The position numbers were made by a program, and so were the translations under genes. The notes under the pieces were generated by a model. That model saw only the letters and a list, made by a program, of their open reading frames with translations. It searched no databases and was not told the DNA's origin. Below are positions 30,006 to 61,368 of a stretch of 64,000 bases of DNA, piece after piece (the stretch's first letter is position 1; every line of letters starts with the position of its first letter). The stretch comes from Undaria pinnatifida (lineage: Eukaryota; Sar; Phaeophyceae; Laminariales; Alariaceae), in NCBI GenBank assembly GCA_012845835.1, contig JABAKD010000029.1, forward strand, positions 11,680,524 through 11,744,523, written 5' to 3'.

Positions 30006-30330
30006 CCAAGGGTGTGTCCGGTACGGTACCGGTATTCTCGATACCGGTGTGGATGTCGTACCGAACTTACCGAAGTGTCCGGTGCCGGTATTGACGTCGT
30101 AGCGAACTTACCGAAGTGTCCGGTACCCGTATTGGAGGTGTACCGAACTTACCGTAGTGTCCGGCACCGGTATTGATGTCATACCGAACTTACCGAAGTT
30201 TCCCGGTACCGGTATTAATGTCATACCGAACTTACCAAAGTTTCCGGTGCCGGTATTCATGTCGTACGGAACTTACCGAAGCGTCCGGTGCCGGTACGAA
30301 ACTCTGCACCGGTACCGGTACCGGTACCGG
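30005..30330 (+). repeat. 41-bp GGTACC minisatellite, array 1
   Basis: Units contain ACCGAACTTACCGAAGTGTC then CGGTACCGGTATTGATGTCG. Successive GAACTT words fall at 30063, 30104, 30145, 30186, 30228 and 30269, a period of 41 bp with one 42. The end is a run of GGTACC (30312-30329). Confidence 0.9.
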
Positions 30331-30784
30331 CACACACTCGAATACATATACCGGCAATACCGGCGGTATATACCGTCGGCAAGTACTGACGTACACTTGC
30401 GCTTAGGTACATAAACTGGACATAAACTGGCGGTACATGTACAGAACAAACCCGGTATTGGCCGGGGGTACCCGCGGAGGTACAAAATTGAAGTGAACTA
30501 TAATTGGTTCTCATATTTTCAATAAGTTTCTTTTGTTTGATCTTTGTCTTGATACGCTGTTCAAACGGTAAGGTACCCTTTGGATTATCAGCAGGGCGCC
30601 GTCTTCTCGTCGATCATTTCGACGTACACGCCAATCGAGTACGACATAAACCAGGCTTCACGCGTCCCTTCCCTCCGAAAACCGGCCGGCACCGGGAACC
30701 ATCGACGGCTTTGATCGTCTCCGCCGGCAACTCGTAGACGTCTCCCGTCAACGAGTTGTCCACAGGAGCAGGCAAAATCATCGG

Positions 30785-31105
30785 CACGGCTCTCTTTTCC
30801 ACGTCCACGTCGACAACTTCTGCCGCCGACGCTGGCCTGTGTGGGAGCTGGCAAACTTTAAAGATGACCTGCCACCAGAAGCGGTGGCATCACTGCCGGA
30901 GGCCACCGCATTCTGGAGAGATGCGCCCTTGCTCATGCGTGCTCAGAGTCTCGATATACCGAGCGTACTGGAAGATACTTGGGGACCGGGGTGTGTGTGG
31001 CTTGGAGTGCTGCCTAGAGCCAAAGCTCGAAGGGATGACGTCACAATGTGGTGGAATCGAGTTGATATCGAGCCAAACGTATCGAAGTGTCCGGTACCGG
31101 GTTGA
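30785..31105 (+). CDS. Coding-like fragment of unknown function between two minisatellite arrays
   Basis: The frame has protein-like composition: aromatic and acidic residues (RRRWPVWELANFKDDLPPEA, FWRDAPLLM, EDTWGPGCVWLGVLPRAKA) over about 95 residues. It ends in the second GGTACC array at a TGA near 31105. It has no obvious start; the first in-frame ATG is at about 30935. I do not recognise the family. It could be an exon of a decayed gene or transposon ORF. The minisatellite on both sides suggests that it was captured between arrays. Confidence 0.3.
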   Translation, partial: HGSLFHVHVDNFCRRRWPVWELANFKDDLPPEAVASLPEATAFWRDAPLLMRAQSLDIPSVLEDTWGPGCVWLGVLPRAKARRDDVTMWWNRVDIEPNVSKCPVPG

Positions 31106-31480
31106 TCTTGTGCCAATCTTACCGAAGTGTCCGGTACCGGTATCGGTGTGGTACCGATACCGATACCGGCTCCGGTACATACGTGCATACCGGTACCGCC
31201 GGTATAGGTATTGATGTCGTACCGAACTTACCGAAGTGTCCGGTACCGGTACTGACGTCGTACCCAACTTACCGAAGTGTCCGGTACCGGTATTGATGTC
31301 GTACCGAACTTACCGAAGTTTCCGGTACCGGTATTGATATCGTACCCAACTTACCGAAGCTTCCGATACCGGTATTGACGCCGTACCGAACTTACCGCAG
31401 TGTTCGGTACCGGTAATACCGGCGGTATACGTATACCGCCGGTACGCCTCGGTACGTACCGTACCGAATACACCCTTTCA
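31075..31480 (+). repeat. 41-bp GGTACC minisatellite, array 2
   Basis: Same unit and orientation as array 1 (CCGAACTTACCGAAGTGTCC with GGTACCGGTATTGATGTCG), about eight units, some truncated. Confidence 0.9.
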
Positions 31481-31574
31481 AATTTCCAAGGCTGTGTTCT
31501 GTAGGGTACGTACAAACCAAACCCGTGGTATTTACCCCGGGTATTACCCTATAGAGAACTTCTATAAGCTATGT

Positions 31575-31945
31575 AGGACATTCATACCCGTACCCGGGAC
31601 TTCTGGAAGTTCTGTACGACCTTCATATCCGTACCCGGAACTTCTGGAAGTTCTGTACGCCCGTGGCCACAATACCCGGGGTACGGATACAGCATGTGTT
31701 GTACCCGCTCGGAACTTCTGTGAGTTATGTACGCCTGTGCCACAATACCCGGAACTTCTGGAAGTTCTGTAAGACTTCCGTATCCGTACCCGGAACTTCT
31801 GGAAGTTCTGTAAAGATCCCCATACCCTTACCCGGAACTTCTGGAAGTTCTGCAAGATCCTCCTACTCTTACCCGGAACTTCTGTGACTCCTGTAAGACT
31901 GTGGCACAATACCTGGGGTACGGGTATACCTTCGTTACAATACCC
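31575..31945 (+). repeat. 41-bp AACTTCTGGAAGTT minisatellite, array 1
   Basis: Units carry CCCGTACCCGGAACTTCTGG then AAGTTCTGTAAGACTTTCAT, period about 41 bp (for example 31598 to 31638 at equivalent bases). AACTTCTGGAAGTT is a dyad. This unit looks related to the GGTACC unit (GAACTT..GAAGT, GTACC). A second array of the same unit lies at 40150-40610. Confidence 0.85.
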
Positions 31946-32185
31946 GGGGAGCTCAGTATTAATTCAGGCTTAATCCGAAACGTGTATTATGCATCAGGAT
32001 GTCGTCATGTTTCGTCGGTCACACAAACCGAACACCGTACAGCAGTACGTATCATGCAATAATAGCATCTATTGATGTTTCTTTCGTTTCAAACGGCACG
32101 TATTAACGAGGCACACTTTTGAATCGAAAATGTTTTTTCTGTATGAATCGAACTGAATTCGATCGATTCGATTTGGTGGAAACAT

Positions 32186-32377
32186 AATGTAGGATTCGGT
32201 ACGTATGGAATCCGTTGTTTGTGGAGGCGGTATTTAATTCGGGAAAAGGGGTTGGAAGTTCTCGAGGGGTAGCGAGAGCTTACGATTGCCAGAGAGAAGC
32301 TAGTACGAGGTCAGGGGCCGGTCTCAGCAGTATCTACGCATTGGAAGCAGGGGCATCGCCCTATACTTGATCGAATT
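32186..32377 (+). repeat. Split direct repeat A1 (left end of the element)
   Basis: This 192-bp repeat starts AATGTAGGATTCGGTACG and ends CTTGATCGAATT, five bases before the first ATG of the Gag-like ORF. It should carry the promoter or start of the element's transcript, by analogy with the order. Confidence 0.9.
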
Positions 32378-32381
32378 AGCC

Positions 32382-32552
32382 ATGGATGGGGAGTCCGCCT
32401 CGTCTGCTTCATCGGCAGCCGGCGGCAGCGGGGCCGGCTCGGCGGGACAGGTCGGGGCGCAAGCGTCGTCGCAACAGCTGCTCGATATGCTGCAGCAGGT
32501 CTCGCAACAGATCCAAGGCCAAGGAGCGCGGCTGGCGGCCATCGAGCAGAGG

Positions 32553-32599
<47 letters not shown>

Positions 32600-32606
32600 A
32601 CAACAG

Positions 32607-32644
<38 letters not shown>

Positions 32645-33923
32645 TCAGCAGCAGCAGCAATACCAGCACCAGCAACAGCACCAGCAGCAGCAGCAACCGC
32701 AGCAACATGTTCAGCAACCCCAGCAATTTCTGCCGCAGTACCCAATCCATCCACAACTGCAGCTCCCACCCTTCCAGGCCGGTGCTCACCTGGCGGGCGC
32801 CGTTCCGCCCTACCCACAGAACGCCAGTTTTGAGAGCATTTCGCAAGGATTGATGGCGAAAGACGCGGCCAAGCGAGGGTTAAAGCTCTGGAGCGAGGAA
32901 GGCGGAGCGGCGTTCTTCATCCTGCGGGGGGGGCACGCCGTAACTGCGGTCCTCACTGCGGCAACGCTTTCGAACTTGGTTCGCAAGGTGGCCGAGCCTA
33001 CTGCCAAAATGACAGGCATGTTGCTATCGCTCTCGGACATGGACGTGCTGGCATTCGGACCGCCGGTACCTGAGGGATGGTCGCAGTTCCCACGTCACCC
33101 GGCCAAGCATTTCGCCATCTTTATCAAGGTGCTGGGGATAGTCATCGGATACGGCACGGAGGCGTCGTCCGACATCTCCAAGGTGAGGAGGGCCGCGCTA
33201 CTGGGTGAGATACGCGCGGTGCAGGAGCGGCTGGAGGAGTTTACGGATCACCACGCATCCCAACTGCACCACTACAAGGAGGACGTGGAGAAGCGCATCA
33301 CGGACGCCATAAACGCCGGTATCAAGGATTTCTTCGGCGAGCTGAAGGACGAGGCCGACAAGCTGCGTCAGGAGCACGCCTTCGTGGCGCCGGTCAGTGG
33401 GTCGGGGCAACCCCCTAAGTCCCCGCGGTTCGAGCAGCTGTCTTGCCTGGTGGACAGAAGCCACACCCACAACCTAATCGGACGGTTGGACAACGGCATC
33501 GTGGCACCTCTGCAGAAGGCCGCGGGCAAGACGGGAGCGGGCAAGAGGAAATCGGTGGATACCGGCGACCTCACGGCACGAGCACGCCCGCGAAACCAGC
33601 CTGTAGGCGCGGCATCCTCCTCGGCTGCCTTCATACAGTCCATGTCAGACTGGAAAACGCCCGCCGGGGTTTGCGCTAGTGGCTGGAGAGGCCAAAAGTG
33701 CGAGAGGGCCTCATGCAAGTACGACCACGACAAGCGGCACCCGAACGTGCCACCCCCACCCCCGGGCCCACCACCCGCACCGGCGGCAGCACCTACAACA
33801 GCGGTTAGCAGCGCCACCCCTGTCCGTCACAACCCCCCTCCTCCCGCCGCACAGGCATCGGTCGCGCGCTTCAGCGGCAACCACGGGCGCAGGTCCAACG
33901 GCGCAGGAGGGAGCAGCAACTGA
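32382..33923 (+). CDS. Gag-like ORF1 of the tyrosine-recombinase retrotransposon
   Basis: 513 residues from the first ATG after repeat A1 to TGA at 33921-33923. A Ser/Ala/Gly-rich N-terminus leads into a CAG/CAA-encoded polyglutamine tract (about residues 57-112), then a folded middle region, a charged helical stretch (about 267-335, likely coiled coil) and a zinc finger of pattern C-x8-C-x4-C-x3-H near residue 431 (CASGWRGQKC, CKYDH). A Pro/Ala-rich tail follows. CCCH-type fingers bind RNA, so a nucleocapsid-like role is inferred. ORF1 has no sequence family I recognise beyond that. The next ORF is in the same frame with only the UGA between them. Confidence 0.85.
32551..32715 (+). repeat. 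CAG/CAA trinucleotide tract in ORF1
   Basis: Nearly uninterrupted CAG and CAA codons, with a few CAT (His) and TAC (Tyr) codons, encode the polyglutamine stretch. The mix of CAG and CAA would limit slippage. The minus-strand poly-Leu frame is an artefact. Confidence 0.9.
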
Positions 33924-36900
33924 TGGTGCGGGCCTCGTCTTTCGACGGGGCCGACAAGGGAGGGGGCAGGGGCGGTAGCACCGGCGGCGTTCGCGGACGC
34001 AAGCAAGACGGTAGGACTGCTCGCGGCTCCCCAACCCGGGTCGGTGGCACCGGAAGTGTTTCATGGTGAGAAAACGATCCCCGGTCCACGGCCGACAGAG
34101 CAGTCGAGAGGCACAGAAGTCGTTGCTGACACAGCAGGCAGACAGTATTTTTCTCGCGGGAAACATAGGCAAGAGACTTTCAGTGACACCACAGGCAGGC
34201 AAAAGTTCAACTATCTCACGCCACGCAGAATTTCATGCAGGAGAAAAACAGACAAGCAGGCAAGAATAAAATTCCTCACCAGAAAAACAGAAACGAGATC
34301 AGTGGCGATACATCACCCAGACAGAATTTTATTCAAGAAAAAAGCAGAAAAGAGATCCTCGTTGATCCATCAGGCAGACAGAATTTCCCTCACGGGAAAA
34401 ACAGAGAAGAGATCCTCGTTGATCCACCAGGCAGACAGAATTTCCCTCACGGAAAAAAACAGAGAAGAGATCCTCGTTGATCCATCAGGCAGACAGAATT
34501 TCCCTCACGGGAAAAACAGAAAAGAGATCACCATTGATCCATCAGGCAGACAGAATTTCCCTCACGGGAAAAACAGAAAAGAGATCCCAGTTGATCCAGC
34601 AGGCAGGCAGAATTTCTCTCACGGGAAAAACAGAAAAGAGATCCTCGTTGATCCATCAGGCAGACAGAATTTCCCTCACGGGAAAAACAGAAAAGAGATC
34701 CTAGTTGATCCATCAGGCAGGCAGAATTTCTCTCACGGAAAAATCAGAAAAGAGATCCTCGTTGATCCATCAGGCAGGCAGAATTTCCCTCACGGGAAAA
34801 ACAGAAAAGAGATCCTCGTCGATCCATCAGGCAGACAGAATTTCCCTCACGGGAAAAACAGAAAAGAGATCCCAGTTGATCCATCAGGCAGGCAGAATTT
34901 CTCTCACGGGAAAATCAGAAAAGAGATCCTCGTTGATCCATCAGGCAGGCAGAATTTCCCTCACGGGAAAAGCCGAAAAGAGATCCTCGTCGATCCATCA
35001 GGCAGGCAGAATTCCCCTCACGGAGAAATCAGAAAAGAGATCCTCGTTGATCCATCAGGCAGGCAGAATTTCCCTCACGGGAAAAACAGAAAAGAGATCC
35101 TTGATGATCCATCAGACAGGCAGAATTTCCCTCACGGGAAAAACAGACAAGAGATCCTCGTGGATCCAACAGGCAGGCAGAATTTCCCTCACGGGAAAAA
35201 CAGAAAAGAGATCCTTGATGATCCATCAGACAGGCAGAATTTCCCTCACGGGAAAAACAGACAACAGATCATTGATGATGATTCAACAGGCACACAAAAT
35301 AGCACGCACATGGCACGCGAAAGAAAAATAACTACAGCACTATCCCAGAATGGTATTCACGGTAGCGGGGTCGGAGAATCGACTGGCGGGTCGGCGTCGC
35401 TGACGCCTCCTGATGGAGGGGAAAATCTCAGACTCCATAACGAAAATATGAAACGGAAAGAAGGCAACAGACTAGAACAAGACATAATAGCGCTAACCTG
35501 TAAGTGGTCGAAGAAGAAAAATAGCATGTCGGACAGAGACTTTGGTATCGAAGACAAGAAACGAATTATTGGCGACCTCGCGAACACCTGTACGGAGCTC
35601 GTTAGGTTGCACGGAGGCAAGCTGGGGGACGTCGCAAAAGGAATCGGCGGCACCTTGGTGTCACCGCCGTTGGATGTGCGCGGCGTCGAACAGTACTTCG
35701 GGAACTTGAAACGCTTCCCAGCCATAGACGACCTACTCGAAATAGTAGCTAACGGAGTACCGGCCAGAACCACTCGCGAAGAAACAGATCTAGACAAAGC
35801 ACTGCAGTATGGCAACCATCGTAGCGTCGGGGAACATCTACCCAGAATTTGGGAGAAACTATTCGACGACGTAAGAAGGAACAGGTGCCTGGTACTAAAT
35901 AGGGCAGCCGCGGCAGAGGTAGCGGGTATTCGAATCGCCCCTCTGGCAGCGGTGGTCACCAATAAGGTGCGCATTATAAACGATTTCTCTTTCGACCCAA
36001 CCACCGCCCGAGGGGTGCAGGGAGGACTTAACCGCGACACGTTGAAAGACGAAATACCTCGATGCCTATGCGGGAAAGCCCTCCCCAAATTCCTGGCAGA
36101 AATTACCAGCCTGAGAGTCAAATATCCAGACAAGAGAATACTGATGTCGAAAGCAGATGTGTCGGACGCTTTCAGAAACGTACGGGTAGCCCCGGACCAA
36201 GCGCAAAATTTCTGTTATGTTTTGGACGATGTGTTAGTAGCAGACCTACGTCTTACCTTTGGGTGGGCTGGGTCACCCGGGTTTTGGGGGGTGATGTCGG
36301 CAGCGGCAGAGCACGCTCACTGCTACACCTCATTAACAGACGCGATAGTGTTGCCTGAAGGAGCGGAAATGATGTCCCATGTTAGAATCGCTGATCCCTG
36401 GGAAGTCGGCCAGCCCACTCGCGTACCACGCGCGGCAGGTGTCCGACCGGCAAAGGGAGGGGGGCGTTTGGACCCGTTCTTTACCACCGTATATGTGGAC
36501 GACTATATGCTAGTACGAGTTCAACAAGATTCGAATGATCAGTCCGCTCTGGTTGCATCCGCGTCGTTAGCCTCTGAACACGTTAGACTTTTCGGACAGG
36601 GGGAAATCGGCGAAACCCCTATTCTGGCGCCAAAGAAAAGCACCGATTGGGACACGACTATTGAAGCTTTAGGTTACACGATCGACTCACACCGCATGCG
36701 TATTTCAACAACCCAAGCAAAGATAGAGGCGATCAGATTGCTTCTAGAGCGAGAATGGCCACCTGTCCGGAAAATGGCGGACGCACAAGAAGTGTTAAGC
36801 ATTGCGGGAAAACTGTGGAATCTAACGTTTGTGGTCAGAGCCGGTAGATATTTTGTGTGGCAACTGCTACGCCTCACGGGCCTGCACAAGAAGGGCAGAT

Positions 36901-37631
36901 CTAAGTCGAGAATACAGAGGGTCGTGCGGTTGGGATGGGAGTTCCATGGTGACATTGCATTTTGGAAGTGGGCGATCGATCAACGGCTGATAAATCAGGG
37001 AGAATCTCTCAGCGCCCCCTTTTATGCGCACGTACTCAGAAGACCTGTAAGGCACTATTTTTCAGACGCCAGTTTCGACGCAATCGGAGGGTACTGCCCC
37101 GAGCTAAGGATATTTTGGCGTTATACCCTAGACCCGCAGTTGTCCTCAGAAATGAAGCGAAAGGCACAGGCGCGAGAGAGCTGTGCGATCACGATTAACT
37201 TACTAGAACTTTGTGGCATGGTCATTACTGCCTTCGTCGTACAGTTACTGTTAGGCGACCGACCAACCACCGAGGGGGAATCCATTATGATGCGGGGAGA
37301 CAACATGTCTGCCGTGTCGTGGGTGAACCGGTGCGGAGGCTCACGCGATAGACGCGCGGGGATCCTTATGAGACTTTTAGGCCGCATGGAGATTACAAGC
37401 GGTTGGTGTCACGTGGCCAAGCATATCCCCGGGGTGGATAACAGGTTGGCGGATGGTATTTCCAGATGGCCGGAAAAAGAGGTACAGAAAAACGTTTCTC
37501 GATTGACACAAGAGCAGGGTTGGACCCGACAAGAGATAGCGGGAGGGAATCTGGTACTTAATACAATATTGAACTTGAACCTCCCAAAAGAGAGACTAGA
37601 CGACGACTTGTGGGGTCAACTGATAGCTTGA
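33924..37631 (+). CDS. RT-RNase H ORF2, in frame with Gag across one UGA
   Basis: The frame is open from the codon after the ORF1 stop (UGA at 33921) to TGA at 37629-37631: 1,235 residues, with its first in-frame ATG only at 35310 (773-residue product). The N-terminal ~460 residues include the 57-bp repeat array. Reverse transcriptase motifs follow: VRIINDFSFD (~35970), ADVSDAFRNV with the first catalytic Asp (~36150), LTFGWAGSPGFW (~36253) and YVDD at 36492-36503. RNase H is visible as FSDASFDAIGGY (~37059), an INLLEL Glu (~37200), RGDNMSAV (~37297) and HIPGVDNRLAD (~37420), the DIRS-type arrangement. No protease, DDE integrase or methyltransferase was seen. Expression could be by stop readthrough, by reinitiation (the stop overlaps an out-of-frame ATG as TGATG), or from the internal ATG. 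Confidence 0.85.
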   Translation, partial: WCGPRLSTGPTREGAGAVAPAAFADASKTVGLLAAPQPGSVAPEVFHGEKTIPGPRPTEQSRGTEVVADTAGRQYFSRGKHRQETFSDTTGRQKFNYLTPRRISCRRKTDKQARIKFLTRKTETRSVAIHHPDRILFKKKAEKRSSLIHQADRISLTGKTEKRSSLIHQADRISLTEKNREEILVDPSGRQNFPHGKNRKEITIDPSGRQNFPHGKNRKEIPVDPAGRQNFSHGKNRKEILVDPSGRQNFPHGKNRKEILVDPSGRQNFSHGKIRKEILVDPSGRQNFPHGKNRKEILVDPSGRQNFPHGKNRKEIPVDPSGRQNFSHGKIRKEILVDPSGRQNFPHGKSRKEILVDPSGRQNSPHGEIRKEILVDPSGRQNFPHGKNRKEILDDPSDRQNFPHGKNRQEILVDPTGRQNFPHGKNRKEILDDPSDRQNFPHGKNRQQIIDDDSTGTQNSTHMARERKITTALSQNGIHGSGVGESTGGSASLTPPDGGENLRLHNENMKRKEGNRLEQDIIALTCKWSKKKNSMSDRDFGIEDKKRIIGDLANTCTELVRLHGGKLGDVAKGIGGTLVSPPLDVRGVEQYFGNLKRFPAIDDLLEIVANGVPARTTREETDLDKALQYGNHRSVGEHLPRIWEKLFDDVRRNRCLVLNRAAAAEVAGIRIAPLAAVVTNKVRIINDFSFDPTTARGVQGGLNRDTLKDEIPRCLCGKALPKFLAEITSLRVKYPDKRILMSKADVSDAFRNVRVAPDQAQNFCYVLDDVLVADLRLTFGWAGSPGFWGVMSAAAEHAHCYTSLTDAIVLPEGAEMMSHVRIADPWEVGQPTRVPRAAGVRPAKGGGRLDPFFTTVYVDDYMLVRVQQDSNDQSALVASASLASEHVRLFGQGEIGETPILAPKKSTDWDTTIEALGYTIDSHRMRISTTQAKIEAIRLLLEREWPPVRKMADAQEVLSIAGKLWNLTFVVRAGRYFVWQLLRLTGLHKKGRSKSRIQRVVRLGWEFHGDIAFWKWAIDQRLINQGESLSAPFYAHVLRRPVRHYFSDASFDAIGGYCPELRIFWRYTLDPQLSSEMKRKAQARESCAITINLLELCGMVITAFVVQLLLGDRPTTEGESIMMRGDNMSAVSWVNRCGGSRDRRAGILMRLLGRMEITSGWCHVAKHIPGVDNRLADGISRWPEKEVQKNVSRLTQEQGWTRQEIAGGNLVLNTILNLNLPKERLDDDLWGQLIA
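34120..35295 (+). repeat. 57-bp tandem array inside ORF2
   Basis: About 16.5 clear units from 34349 to 35290, plus three or four decayed units upstream, each with GGCAGACAGAATTTCCCTCA and CGGGAAAAACAGAAAAGAGA. A unit is 19 codons. In the ORF2 frame most units read as DPSGRQNFPHGKNRKEILV. The first two clear units, before an extra A near 34456, read as IHQADRISLTGKTEKRSSL instead. Both phases are very basic. The unit has no stop in at least two plus frames and part of the minus strand, so openness alone does not prove translation. Confidence 0.95.
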
Positions 37632-37774
37632 CCAAAAAGGACAGTTCGAGAAATAGCGAAAGTGTGAACGAAGACTCAGACTAAGAAAAATAAGAACGAA
37701 GGTGCGAAGGTCGAGGCTCAGTCGAGCGCGACACGATTCGGAACAACAGAAACACACAGTCTGTTCACACGGGC

Positions 37775-38956
37775 ATGCTCGAAGAACTTAAGAACGCCGA
37801 GATTCCAACAGGCCGGAATGAATGGCTAAAATTTTCGCTCGTATTCCTAATCTCAGGAACAGAAGGACGAACAGAAAGCGACGACGCGGAGGTGGCAAGA
37901 TTGATCGAGACCCTCGCGCTCGGGTCCGTAAGCGTAAGTACCAAGAAGGAGTATTTAAGCAAATGGAGGACGTGGGTGAAAGAGCGAGCGCGCAGAAATT
38001 TAGGCCCGTGGTTGTCGGAGGAGGACGGGATAGATAGCGCGGTTACCGAACTCACAAGGTTTATGGCGTCGAGGTGTTTTGTACACAAGAATCAGAGCGG
38101 AACAGTGCGTGGCTATCTAGCCGCGATCAAACATTTCCATAAGATGTTCGCGGGTTGGGAACTCCCCACCTCGCATTGCATGATCGTCGCGGTGGGCAAG
38201 GGAATCGATCGTGCTCACGGAAAGTCGGACGTTCGCCCCAAAGTCAGAAAACCACTAACGTGGGAGATGCTGATTGCAGGGCGGGAGGCGGTAGAACAGA
38301 TGGGGGAAACGGGAAGCCTCATGTGGAAAGGGTTGGCTCTGTCATACCTCCTGCTGTGTCGAGCCTCCGAAATCTGGGCGTACGGGAATGGGTTGGTTCA
38401 TTCGGAGTTCTGTTTGACTAGGGGAGACATAGCTTTTTGCAACGGTCCAACTCGCCTTGTCGGGTCAGATCGAAGGCGGGCGGACAGAGTTGAAGTTTTA
38501 TTCCGAGCGTCGAAAGCAGATCAGAAAAGAGTTGGAGCGACGATCACAAGGACGAGAGTAAGGACCAACGACACCGAACGGTGGGGTGGTGAGGACTGTG
38601 GAGCAGTAGAGATACTTCTTGATCTTTTTGAATCGCACTCAGAATTGGGGGAACACGCGCCACTAATGCAGGCCACGTGTGGTATCGGGTGGCAGGTCAT
38701 TTCTCGTGCGGCGGCGACGCGCGCTCTGAGGATATTAGTTGGAAGTCTGGGGAACGGCCCACAGCAATACGCACTTCACTCAGGTAGAATCGGAGGAACC
38801 ACGCACTTGGCGCGGTGCGGAGCAACGGCAATTCAGATCAAGCTCGCCGGACGCTGGAAATCAACAGCGTTCATGGTTTATGTCAGAGCGGGGGGGGAAG
38901 GGGCGGAGTTTGTGTCGAGAGCGCTCACCCGGAACGCCCGCGGGATTGAGGGGTAA
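37775..38956 (+). CDS. Tyrosine recombinase ORF3
   Basis: A 393-residue ATG-started frame 143 bp after ORF2, in another frame. The family's catalytic residues are visible: Arg at 196 (LLLCRASEIW), His-x-x-Arg at 335-338 (HSGRIGG), a Trp at 361 (LAGRWKS) and the nucleophilic Tyr at 369 (AFMVYVRAG). The N-terminal half (SVSTKKEYLSKWRTWVKE, residues 52-69; RGYLAAIKHFH, 112-122) fits the core-binding, SAM-like domain of phage-integrase-family enzymes. Length is typical for DIRS-order recombinases. It should insert the circular cDNA at the split repeats. All key residues are present, so it is likely active. Confidence 0.92.
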   Translation: MLEELKNAEIPTGRNEWLKFSLVFLISGTEGRTESDDAEVARLIETLALGSVSVSTKKEYLSKWRTWVKERARRNLGPWLSEEDGIDSAVTELTRFMASRCFVHKNQSGTVRGYLAAIKHFHKMFAGWELPTSHCMIVAVGKGIDRAHGKSDVRPKVRKPLTWEMLIAGREAVEQMGETGSLMWKGLALSYLLLCRASEIWAYGNGLVHSEFCLTRGDIAFCNGPTRLVGSDRRRADRVEVLFRASKADQKRVGATITRTRVRTNDTERWGGEDCGAVEILLDLFESHSELGEHAPLMQATCGIGWQVISRAAATRALRILVGSLGNGPQQYALHSGRIGGTTHLARCGATAIQIKLAGRWKSTAFMVYVRAGGEGAEFVSRALTRNARGIEG

Positions 38957-38987
38957 GATAGTATACTATGGTATCGGGCTGGCCTGA

Positions 38988-39209
38988 TGGGGTAGAGTTG
39001 CCCAGCTCGCAGAGGCAAGGGCATTAGTTATATAGTAAGTTGATGGCGGGTTAGCCCGATAGGAAGGGCCCACTGTGAAGAACGTAGAGTGGCGCGTTTT
39101 CACAGTGGGTGTGGGTACGAGGTATAGTAAGGGTCAGTGTTTAAGTTTTTGTATGCTTTTCATCACGTGGGGACATCTAATAATTCCAGAATTCTTGAGC
39201 CAAAACAAA
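38988..39209 (+). repeat. Split direct repeat B1
   Basis: This 222-bp repeat starts 32 bp after the recombinase stop (TGGGGTAGAGTTGCCCAGCT) and ends in CCAAAACAAA. It contains the inverted pair CCCACTGTGAA/TTCACAGTGGG around 39069-39108, a strong hairpin of 11-base arms. Confidence 0.9.
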
Positions 39210-39400
39210 ATGTAGGATTCGGTACGTATGGAATCCGTTGTTTGTGGAGGCGGTATTTAATTCGGGAAAAGGGGTTGGAAGTTCTCGAGGGGTAGCGAGA
39301 GCTTACGATTGCCAGAGAGAAGCTAGTACGAGGTCAGGGGCCGGTCTCAGCAGTATCTACGCATTGGAAGCAGGGGCATCGCCCTATACTTGATCGAATT
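39209..39400 (+). repeat. Split direct repeat A2
   Basis: Appears identical to A1 over 192 bp. It shares its first base with the last base of B1. Confidence 0.92.
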
Positions 39401-39466
39401 CCCACCCACCCGCCCTATCGCTCAAGAGAGGGGGGATATTTGGGTTCAGCGGAACCGAGAGAGTGT

Positions 39467-39688
39467 TGGGGTAGAGTTGCCCAGCTCGCAGAGGCAAGGG
39501 CATTAGTTATATAGTAAGTTGATGGCGGGTTAGCCCGATAGGAAGGGCCCACTGTGAAGAACGTAGAGTGGCGCGTTTTCACAGTGGGTGTGGGTACGAG
39601 GTATAGTAAGGGTCAGTGTTTAAGTTTTTGTATGCTTTTCATCACGTGGGGACATCTAATAATTCCAGAATTCTTGAGCCAAAACAAA
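39467..39688 (+). repeat. Split direct repeat B2 (right end of the element)
   Basis: Appears identical to B1 over 222 bp, including the CCCACTGTGAA hairpin. It is separated from A2 by 66 bp that do not occur elsewhere in the element. Confidence 0.92.
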
Positions 39689-40149
39689 CGTTTTTTTTTC
39701 CTCCTATCGGGAACCCACGTATTATTGCGTATTGTCAATATTTTTTTTTTCCGATCGGAATAATGCAGATCTCGCTGTCGTCGAAGTCTTGAACTATCCT
39801 CTCTCTGTGTTTTCGGTGGCTTCGCTCCTTTGTCGTGGCACTTGGCTTATCGAGCTAGTGCAAAAATTGGGCTTGCGACCGCCATTATTTTTTTTGCGGC
39901 GCCACAGCCGGGGTACGCTATGGTATGACCTGTGTTACAGAATAACAGTTCGTAGTAGTAGACGTGAGCGCCGCTGTTGCCCCGGTCGGCACTCGTTGAG
40001 GTTCACGATTTATGGCCTCAGTGGTTGTTGTCGATAGCTCTCAAAGCTACGACAGATTGCCTCGGGGACGTTGGCCTAGTGAGAGCATGCCATGCAAGCT
40101 CGATGGAATCCCCCACTCCAAATCAAACTTCTCCCCCGAGGCCGTGTAT
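39689..40149. other. No recognisable gene; two poly-T tracts
   Basis: T runs at 39690-39699 and 39740-39750 are each followed by a C/T-rich TCGGGA/TCGGAA word. Otherwise featureless right flank of the retrotransposon. Confidence 0.4.
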
Positions 40150-40610
40150 TTACCTGGGTTTTTACCCGTACCCGGAACTTCTGGAAGTTCTGTAGGATAT
40201 TCATACCCGTACCCGGAACTTCTGTAAGTTCTGTACGCCAGTGCCACAAATACCCGAGGTACGGCATTTTCATACCTGCCCGGAACTTCTGTAAGTTTGC
40301 ACACCCGTGCCACAATAGGAAGTTATGTAAGACTTTCATACCCGTACCCCAAACTTCTGGAAGTTCTGTAAGACTTTCATACCCGTACCCGGAATTCCTG
40401 TGAGTTCTGTACGACCCGTCCCACAATACCCGGGGTACGGGTACAACATGTTTTGTACCTGCCCGGAACTTGTGAGTTCTGTACGCCCGTGCCACAATAC
40501 CCGGAACTTCTGTGAGTTCTGAACACTTCCATACCGGTACCCGAAACTTCTGGAAGTTCTGTAAGACTCCCATACCCTTATTCGGAATCCACAAACCCTG
40601 CAGAACATAA
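40150..40610 (+). repeat. 41-bp AACTTCTGGAAGTT minisatellite, array 2
   Basis: Same unit and orientation as 31575-31945 (CCCGTACCCGGAACTTCTGG then AAGTTCTGTAAGACTTTCAT), about ten units with truncations. Together with that array it brackets the retrotransposon. Confidence 0.85.

Positions 40611-41524: not shown

Positions 41525-61368
<19,844 letters not shown>

Follow-up and report, generated by a model that had tools for sequence, protein, structure and literature searches.

The window analysed in this work is a stretch of 64,000 nucleotides (nt) from the brown alga Undaria pinnatifida, located at G000:C36:11680524-11744523 on the assembly. The window carries a retrotransposon whose related copies were sought in the 511-Mb, 68-contig genome. 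All features of the element described here are on the + strand. The element is bounded by split direct repeats. Repeat D4 consists of A1 (32180..32377; 198 nt) and A2 (39203..39400), which are 99% identical. Repeat D3 consists of B1 (38985..39209; 225 nt) and B2 (39464..39688), which are 100% identical. The order A1-ORFs-B1-A2-B2 encloses a Gag-like open reading frame (ORF), a frame for reverse transcriptase (RT) and RNase H, and an ORF that resembles tyrosine recombinases (YR). The Gag-like ORF1 (32382..33923), taken from the ORF list and the sequence, encodes 513 amino acids, is rich in Q, and ends with TGA. The RT-RNase H coding region (35340..37631), which is the proposed exon 2, was identified from tblastn matches and from motifs seen by eye. 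The YR-like ORF3 (37775..38956) encodes 393 amino acids. Inverted repeats were sought in the element and none were found. The same repeat order is given for Ngaro, PAT-like, and VIPER-like elements in the available text of PMC8547959, PMC6681497, and PMC9210276. The best model for the element is a Ngaro-like tyrosine-recombinase retrotransposon, and its split-repeat order is common to PAT-like and VIPER-like elements too.

The subject of this work is the junction between Gag and Pol. ORF1 starts at ATG 32382 and ends at TGA 33921-33923 in the context AGC-AAC-TGA-TGG-TGC, as found by direct reading and by a frame scan. The positions given in an earlier sequence-only reading of this stretch were all confirmed. 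The Gag frame is open past the TGA for 1,235 codons (33924-37628) to the end of RT-RNase H, and the first in-frame ATG after the TGA is at 35310. The stop overlaps an ATG in another frame at 33923-33925 (TGATG), and that frame has 48 codons before its stop at 34067. The UGA at 33921..33923 is proposed here to be a readthrough codon, and a stop, TGA or other, is kept at this position in most related loci.

The conservation of the stop was assessed with a tblastn search that used the tail of another family, where the tail is the short coding stretch that follows the stop. At least 150 related places in the genome were found and 60 were fetched. The 53 fetched loci that reach tail residue 1 or 2 were kept and seven were dropped, and with the seven sequences already in hand the set consists of 60 loci, many of which are decayed or near-identical through common ancestry and are not independent counts. 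A stop is present in 56 of the 60 loci (51 TGA and 5 TAA), and the others have CGA, TGG, TCT, and AAA, one each. When codons -6 to +6 are compared as amino acids, the stop is the best conserved (93%, with the runner-up at 92%), and the Gag codons -6 to -2 are conserved at 38-53%. The codon preceding the stop is AAC in 43/60 loci. The codon after it is CAA or CAG in 50/60 loci and TGG in the window copy. The conservation of the UGA that the sequence-only reading had asked about is therefore borne out for the stop itself, and the UGG context that it had quoted is not general. UGAC is described as a leaky stop context (PMC3542737, available text). The type II viral motif, UGA-CGG or UGA-CUA, is not the one seen here, where CGG and CTA follow the stop in one locus each of the 60.

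Within family A, to which the window copy belongs, TGA is present in all 14 sites with exact flanks, and none has the sense codon at 33921 that the sequence-only reading had named as evidence against readthrough. Family B, whose RT is 58% identical to that of A, has TGA in 29/30 sites and CGA in one. That sole family B site with a sense codon is G000:C2:3650419-3650440. The TGATG overlap is special to family A, and TGACA, TAACA, or a changed stop is found in 53/59 aligned loci, so stop-start reinitiation is not a conserved feature. A selenocysteine UGA was considered and rejected, where no match to the selenocysteine insertion sequence (SECIS) was found in 31900-39800 up to E 1.

The stop is followed by a conserved tail in Gag's frame (33924..34065), which is the end of the proposed exon 1, and the Gag-like ORF is its conserved partner in related families. 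The tail was compared over 49-50 codons, from the stop to GGTGAG, among seven loci of families A, B, B', C, and C'. The ratio of nonsynonymous to synonymous substitution (dN/dS, or omega) is below 1 in the Gag frame for 20 of the 21 pairs (0.23-0.59). The values are 0.57 for A/B, 0.45 for A/B', 0.25-0.35 for A/C and A/C', and 0.32 for B/B'. The exception is a close pair within C, with eight differences and a value of 2.83. The shifted frames of the tail exhibit dN/dS of at least 1 in 36/42 values. The six lower values (0.37-0.97) are all in one frame, and five of them come from pairs of a C locus with another C or a C' locus. By these comparisons, the tail of ~49 codons is under protein-level purifying selection in Gag's frame, and the stop together with the ~49 codons that follow it is more than chance. 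In-frame ATGs are missing from the tail in A and C, and family B carries one at tail codon 7. Splicing around the UGA was also rejected, where family A has no AG from the stop to tail codon 12. Restart at an AUG and splicing around the stop both fail to account for the tail there because the in-frame ATG is lacking in A and C and the early AG is lacking in A.

A predicted hairpin of 9 bp with a 4-nt loop (33931..33952) starts 7 nt downstream of the UGA. Every family has the sequence for a stem of 8 or 9 bp there, and the arms of A, B, and C differ yet pair. All nine stem pairs are formed in 35 of the 60 loci, eight in 21, seven in 3, and five in 1. The larger hairpin set consists of 59 sequences (52 fetched and 7 in hand; 50 distinct), from which L100, with an indel and 5/9 pairs, was excluded. 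Paired cells amount to 95% among the seven sequences, where two pairs are changed on both sides, and to 94% among the 50 distinct rows. The controls with one arm slid by 1-3 nt give 27-56% and 25-53%, respectively. Five cells are changed on both sides in the large set, compared with 0.9 in shuffles. Readthrough-type 3' structures start about 8 nt after the stop according to the available text of PMC3542737. The spacing of the hairpin fits such signals, and the kept pairing with some compensatory changes would suit a role of this kind.

The tail ends at GTGAGA (34066..34071), which is the proposed 5' splice site. Three features point to it, namely codon bias, conservation of GTGAG, and a drop in identity. 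The last Gly of the tail, where it is kept, is encoded by GGT in 46/46 loci, whereas three other conserved Gly positions use GGT in 0/132 codons. GTGAG is intact in 40 of the 52 loci with a recognisable tail end, and 8/60 loci have no recognisable end. Family A shares 94% identity with L059, its nearest diverged relative, in the 96 nt that lead up to the donor and 44-71% in the ~335 nt that follow, and the identity climbs back to 83% within the array. Among the host chaperonin exons inspected by eye, 2/6 end in GTGAGC or GTGAGA. The AG of the proposed 3' splice site (35336..35337) is tentative and was chosen from a phase-compatible ACAG|CA shared with L059. A clear acceptor, CGCAG|GA in the matching phase, is present in 13/14 loci of C and C', where indels lie just upstream and none downstream in the aligned stretch. 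The acceptor candidates in B and B' are TAG and ambiguous. An intron between the tail and RT is judged to be probable from these features. The sequence-only reading had listed an intron that removes the region among the findings that would speak against its proposal. With the donor conserved and the array neutral, an intron probably does remove most of 33924-35310.

The linker between the tail and RT contains a 57-bp tandem array (34274..35270) of 17.5 copies with 90% matches, which is the proposed content of the intron. The length of the unit is divisible by three and two of the three frames are open in the majority unit, so the open linker frame alone is weak evidence and not beyond chance. 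The sequence-only reading had itself called frame agreement over ~1.4 kb suggestive only. The frame from Gag to RT is uninterrupted in 6/13 family A copies with the upstream part in hand, in 5/17 family B copies (L052 included), and in 0/9 more distant loci (L051, L053-L060). Frame identity among copies, the lack of which had been named as a finding against the proposal, therefore holds in part of A and B, and the frame is broken in the other copies and in all the distant loci. Some of the breaks at A runs could be assembly errors. The window copy has ~80 linker codons in a frame other than that of its relatives, and the linkers of families A, B, and C look unrelated. Among 66 distinct array units, synonymous variants number 17 against 15.9 expected and nonsynonymous variants 49 against 47.8 expected, with no clear selection in any frame. 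The comparison of dN/dS over 33924-35310 that had been suggested as a check thus divides the region, with purifying selection on the tail and neutrality of the array in the Pol frame.

The family B linker carries a 498-bp repeat, which is present in two copies in L038 (2413-3408) and also occurs in L030 and L052. The distance from stop to RT in family B is ~800 or ~1,300, which fits one or two 498-bp copies, and it is longer in L026. An apparent unrelated insertion lies in the linker of L049 (family B; G000:C57:10013616-10017416).

The model that we prefer combines these features. Gag would normally terminate at the UGA (33921-33923). Some ribosomes would pass the UGA, aided by the 3' context (UGA-CAR in most loci and UGA-UGG here) and by the hairpin 7 nt downstream, and readthrough would append the ~49-codon tail (33924-34065) to Gag. 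An intron at 34066-35337 (~1.27 kb), with the donor GTGAG, the array inside, and a tentative acceptor, would be spliced out and place the tail in frame with RT-RNase H. The predicted Gag-Pol product would have about 1,325 residues (513 + 1 + 47 + 1 + 763). In the unspliced RNA, which is presumably genomic, readthrough would enter the array. The stop, its context, the hairpin, the selected tail, and GTGAG are conserved at the sequence level. From them we infer that the UGA is read through and the intron spliced, which acceptor is used, and what each of the two RNAs does. Readthrough of the UGA is considered very probable. The readthrough that the sequence-only reading proposed thus gains from the conserved stop, the selected tail, and the kept hairpin, while its ~1,750-residue product via the array finds no support as the main one, where the array is neutral, the frame is often broken, and the donor ends the tail. 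The whole model, which is a Ngaro-like element with hairpin-assisted UGA readthrough and removal of an intron for Pol, is given a rough probability of 0.57.

Several observations weigh against this model. All loci are from one genome and share common ancestry, and the UGAC context is missing in families A and L059. The single-sequence z-scores of the hairpin are unremarkable (-0.9, -1.1, +0.7, -2.2, -0.9, -0.2, and -0.5). The covariation score in the large set is equalled in 40/500 shuffles, and in the small set 72/500 shuffles match the count of pairs changed on both sides. The version slid by -3 has 6 pairs and 7 cells changed on both sides, compared with 3 and 5 for the hairpin itself. In the Gag end, from -144 to -49, A and L059 are likewise just 58-69% identical, so low identity is not confined to the stretch behind the donor. 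Family A has a weak acceptor that lacks a pyrimidine tract, and no clear acceptor emerged in B, D, and E. No intronless copy was found among the matches listed for two junction queries against the genome, where no listed place aligned with the two sides of the junction in one piece at high identity. Some alignments of these queries pass the junction by up to ~20 residues or cover most of the query at 33-50%, and they are read as chance extension.

Other observations of this kind also bear on the alternatives. The open Gag-to-RT frame is kept in some copies, the repeat unit has a length divisible by three in A (57 bp) as well as in B (498 bp), and variants that create stops in the Pol frame of the array number 0 against 2.3 expected. 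These fit a translated linker, in which unspliced RNA would be read continuously through the whole linker and array into RT to give a 1,750-residue Gag-Pol with the array as a repetitive spacer. We regard this as unlikely, although it is the strongest of the alternatives. The array has the numbers of synonymous and nonsynonymous variants that neutrality predicts, and the frame is interrupted in 7/13 A copies, 12/17 B copies, and 9/9 distant loci, even though some differences at A runs are possibly assembly errors. The ~80 codons of the window copy in the other frame and the unrelated appearance of the A, B, and C linkers point the same way, and continuous translation leaves the GGT-GAG codon choice unexplained. 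The sharing of ancestry by copies within a family would also suit a nonsense mutation in a dead master copy that was spread by amplification. This origin of the stop is extremely improbable, as the stop persists in families that have diverged to 58% identity in RT and about 50% in the tail, while the adjoining Gag end varies.

The scan for start codons near RT covered the RT frame over the last 60 nt ahead of the proposed exon 2. An ATG is present in 11/12 scanned family A copies at -30 (35310 in the window), and one further copy was without the exact motif. It is also present in 9/10 C loci at -15, in 8/10 C' loci at -45/-60, and in L056 at -60. No such ATG was found in the 12 scanned family B copies or in L059. 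Families A and C could in principle start Pol at the ATG near RT, which is a further point against the preferred model, and family B needs fusion or another start because it has none there. Initiation of Pol at an AUG, whether by reinitiation at TGATG or, with the array serving as leader, from 35310 and the corresponding ATGs, agrees with the overlap in family A, with the ATGs near RT in A, C, C', and L056, and with the in-frame ATG at tail codon 7 in B. Set against this, the overlapping ATG opens another frame of only 48 codons, the ATG positions differ among A, C, and C', the C and C' stretch carries indels, B and L059 have no ATG near RT, and selection acts on the tail ahead of any ATG. The start at 35310 that the sequence-only reading had offered as its second option, with the array as leader, is weakly placed for these reasons, notwithstanding the ATG in most A, C, and C' loci, and initiation at an AUG as a whole is improbable. 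Foamy viruses produce Pol from a separately spliced RNA without the Gag frame. The element could likewise make Pol from such an RNA, with the tail as a mere readthrough extension of Gag. This idea is favoured by the proposed 5' splice site at the end of the tail, by an acceptor near RT that could be paired with other donors upstream, and by the in-frame ATGs close to RT in families A, C, and C'. The lack of an in-frame ATG near RT in 12/12 scanned B copies and in L059 argues against this arrangement, as does the agreement in phase between tail and RT at the splice sites proposed for A, L059, C, and C', and we consider it improbable too, by a hair less so than initiation at an AUG.

The preferred model, with its readthrough codon and intron, can be extended to a control of Gag-Pol by two locks, in which Pol would be made only from spliced RNA and only when hairpin-assisted readthrough occurs at the UGA ~142 nt upstream of the junction. 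This proposal is tentative and is put at slightly less than even odds. If it is true, the unspliced RNA would stay the genome and the Gag message. The arrays, which change fast and differ by family (57 bp, 498 bp, and other repeats), would then be free content of an intron and not protein.

The element is consistent with Ngaro-like elements of the DIRS order in the A1-ORFs-B1-A2-B2 arrangement, the Gag-like ORF, the putative RT-RNase H, the YR-like ORF, and a spacing of Pol and YR that is too short to hold a methyltransferase. Ectocarpus, another brown alga, is reported to harbour diverse Ngaro families in the available text of PMC12477816. However, a readthrough stop, a hairpin, and a Gag-Pol intron are unmentioned in the passages available from PMC3783388, PMC8547959, PMC6681497, PMC9210276, and PMC3266345. 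Tca2, a long terminal repeat (LTR) retrotransposon of Candida albicans, also has gag and pol divided by a UGA, with an RNA structure that may form on its 3' side. It differs in its element class, in that its junction sequence alone gave no readthrough in yeast, and in that no intron is mentioned for it in the available text of PMC2194720. The gammaretroviruses have a stop before reverse transcriptase and the type II viral UGA signals have a stop within the replicase, and in both a 3' RNA structure follows the stop at about 8 nt. The former use UAG-G with a pseudoknot and the latter UGA-CGG or UGA-CUA, often with an extended stem-loop, whereas the element has UGA-CAR (UGA-UGG in the window) and a compact 9-bp hairpin (PMC3542737, available text). 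The RNAs of the plant elements Ogre and BARE are spliced, between ORFs in Ogre and near the end of gag in BARE1. However, these are LTR elements and not tyrosine-recombinase elements, and no readthrough signal tied to the intron is mentioned in the available text of PMC3735527.

Viral and retroviral genes with stop readthrough, an element in which a UGA divides gag from pol, and retrotransposons whose RNA is spliced are already known from the available text of PMC3542737, PMC2194720, and PMC3735527. The combination of readthrough and splicing in a tyrosine-recombinase element was not found in the available text of the openly licensed literature, supplementary files aside. The setting of the Gag:Pol ratio in tyrosine-recombinase retrotransposons is little described in that text, which tells of separate, overlapping, or frameshifted ORFs. 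One genome with several diverged families that share the same stop, hairpin, tail, and splice site would be a natural series for the measurement of readthrough and splicing. The element also gives a warning that long open frames across tandem arrays in retroelements can be intronic.

The assignments of the element proteins rest on the following matches. A zinc-finger-like motif, C-x8-C-x4-C-x3-H, lies near the Gag C-terminus (33672..33728) and was seen by eye in the translations, where its spacing is identical in families B and C. The motif gave a weak Pfam match to zf-CCCH_12 (E 0.21, below the cut-off), and the Pfam search with the Gag-like ORF1 gave nothing above the cut-off. The tblastn search with RT-RNase H against the genome gave 61 matches at 42-100% identity. 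YVDD and RNase H motifs were spotted by eye in this frame. The RT-RNase H protein of the window had no match in the Pfam and PDB sequence searches, and the RT query against viral contigs found no relative. The PDB sequence search with ORF3 placed Cre entries on top with the catalytic end covered, weakly at E 0.33, and there was no Pfam match for ORF3. The R...HxxR...W...Y pattern of YR was seen by eye in ORF3. Other Pfam matches of the element proteins were below the threshold and of no use, and the AlphaFold models were unusable (pLDDT, the predicted local distance difference test, of 36 for YR and 30). The distance from the Pol stop to the YR ATG is 143 nt, which leaves no room there for a methyltransferase.

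The Gag tract at 32552-32704 is rich in CAG/CAA, and the length of the Gag ORF varies between copies, apparently through this tract. Two family A copies form an inverted pair on opposite strands at G000:C21:10635433-10643986 (L007/L013, L037, and L046), with near-identical upstream sequence. Units of a 41-bp minisatellite flank the element of the window on both sides (30042-31898 and 40169-40576), which places it in or beside a minisatellite region. Further downstream on the + strand (48922-60211) lie pieces of a host gene that looks neurobeachin/BEACH-like by DUF4704 and WD40 matches.

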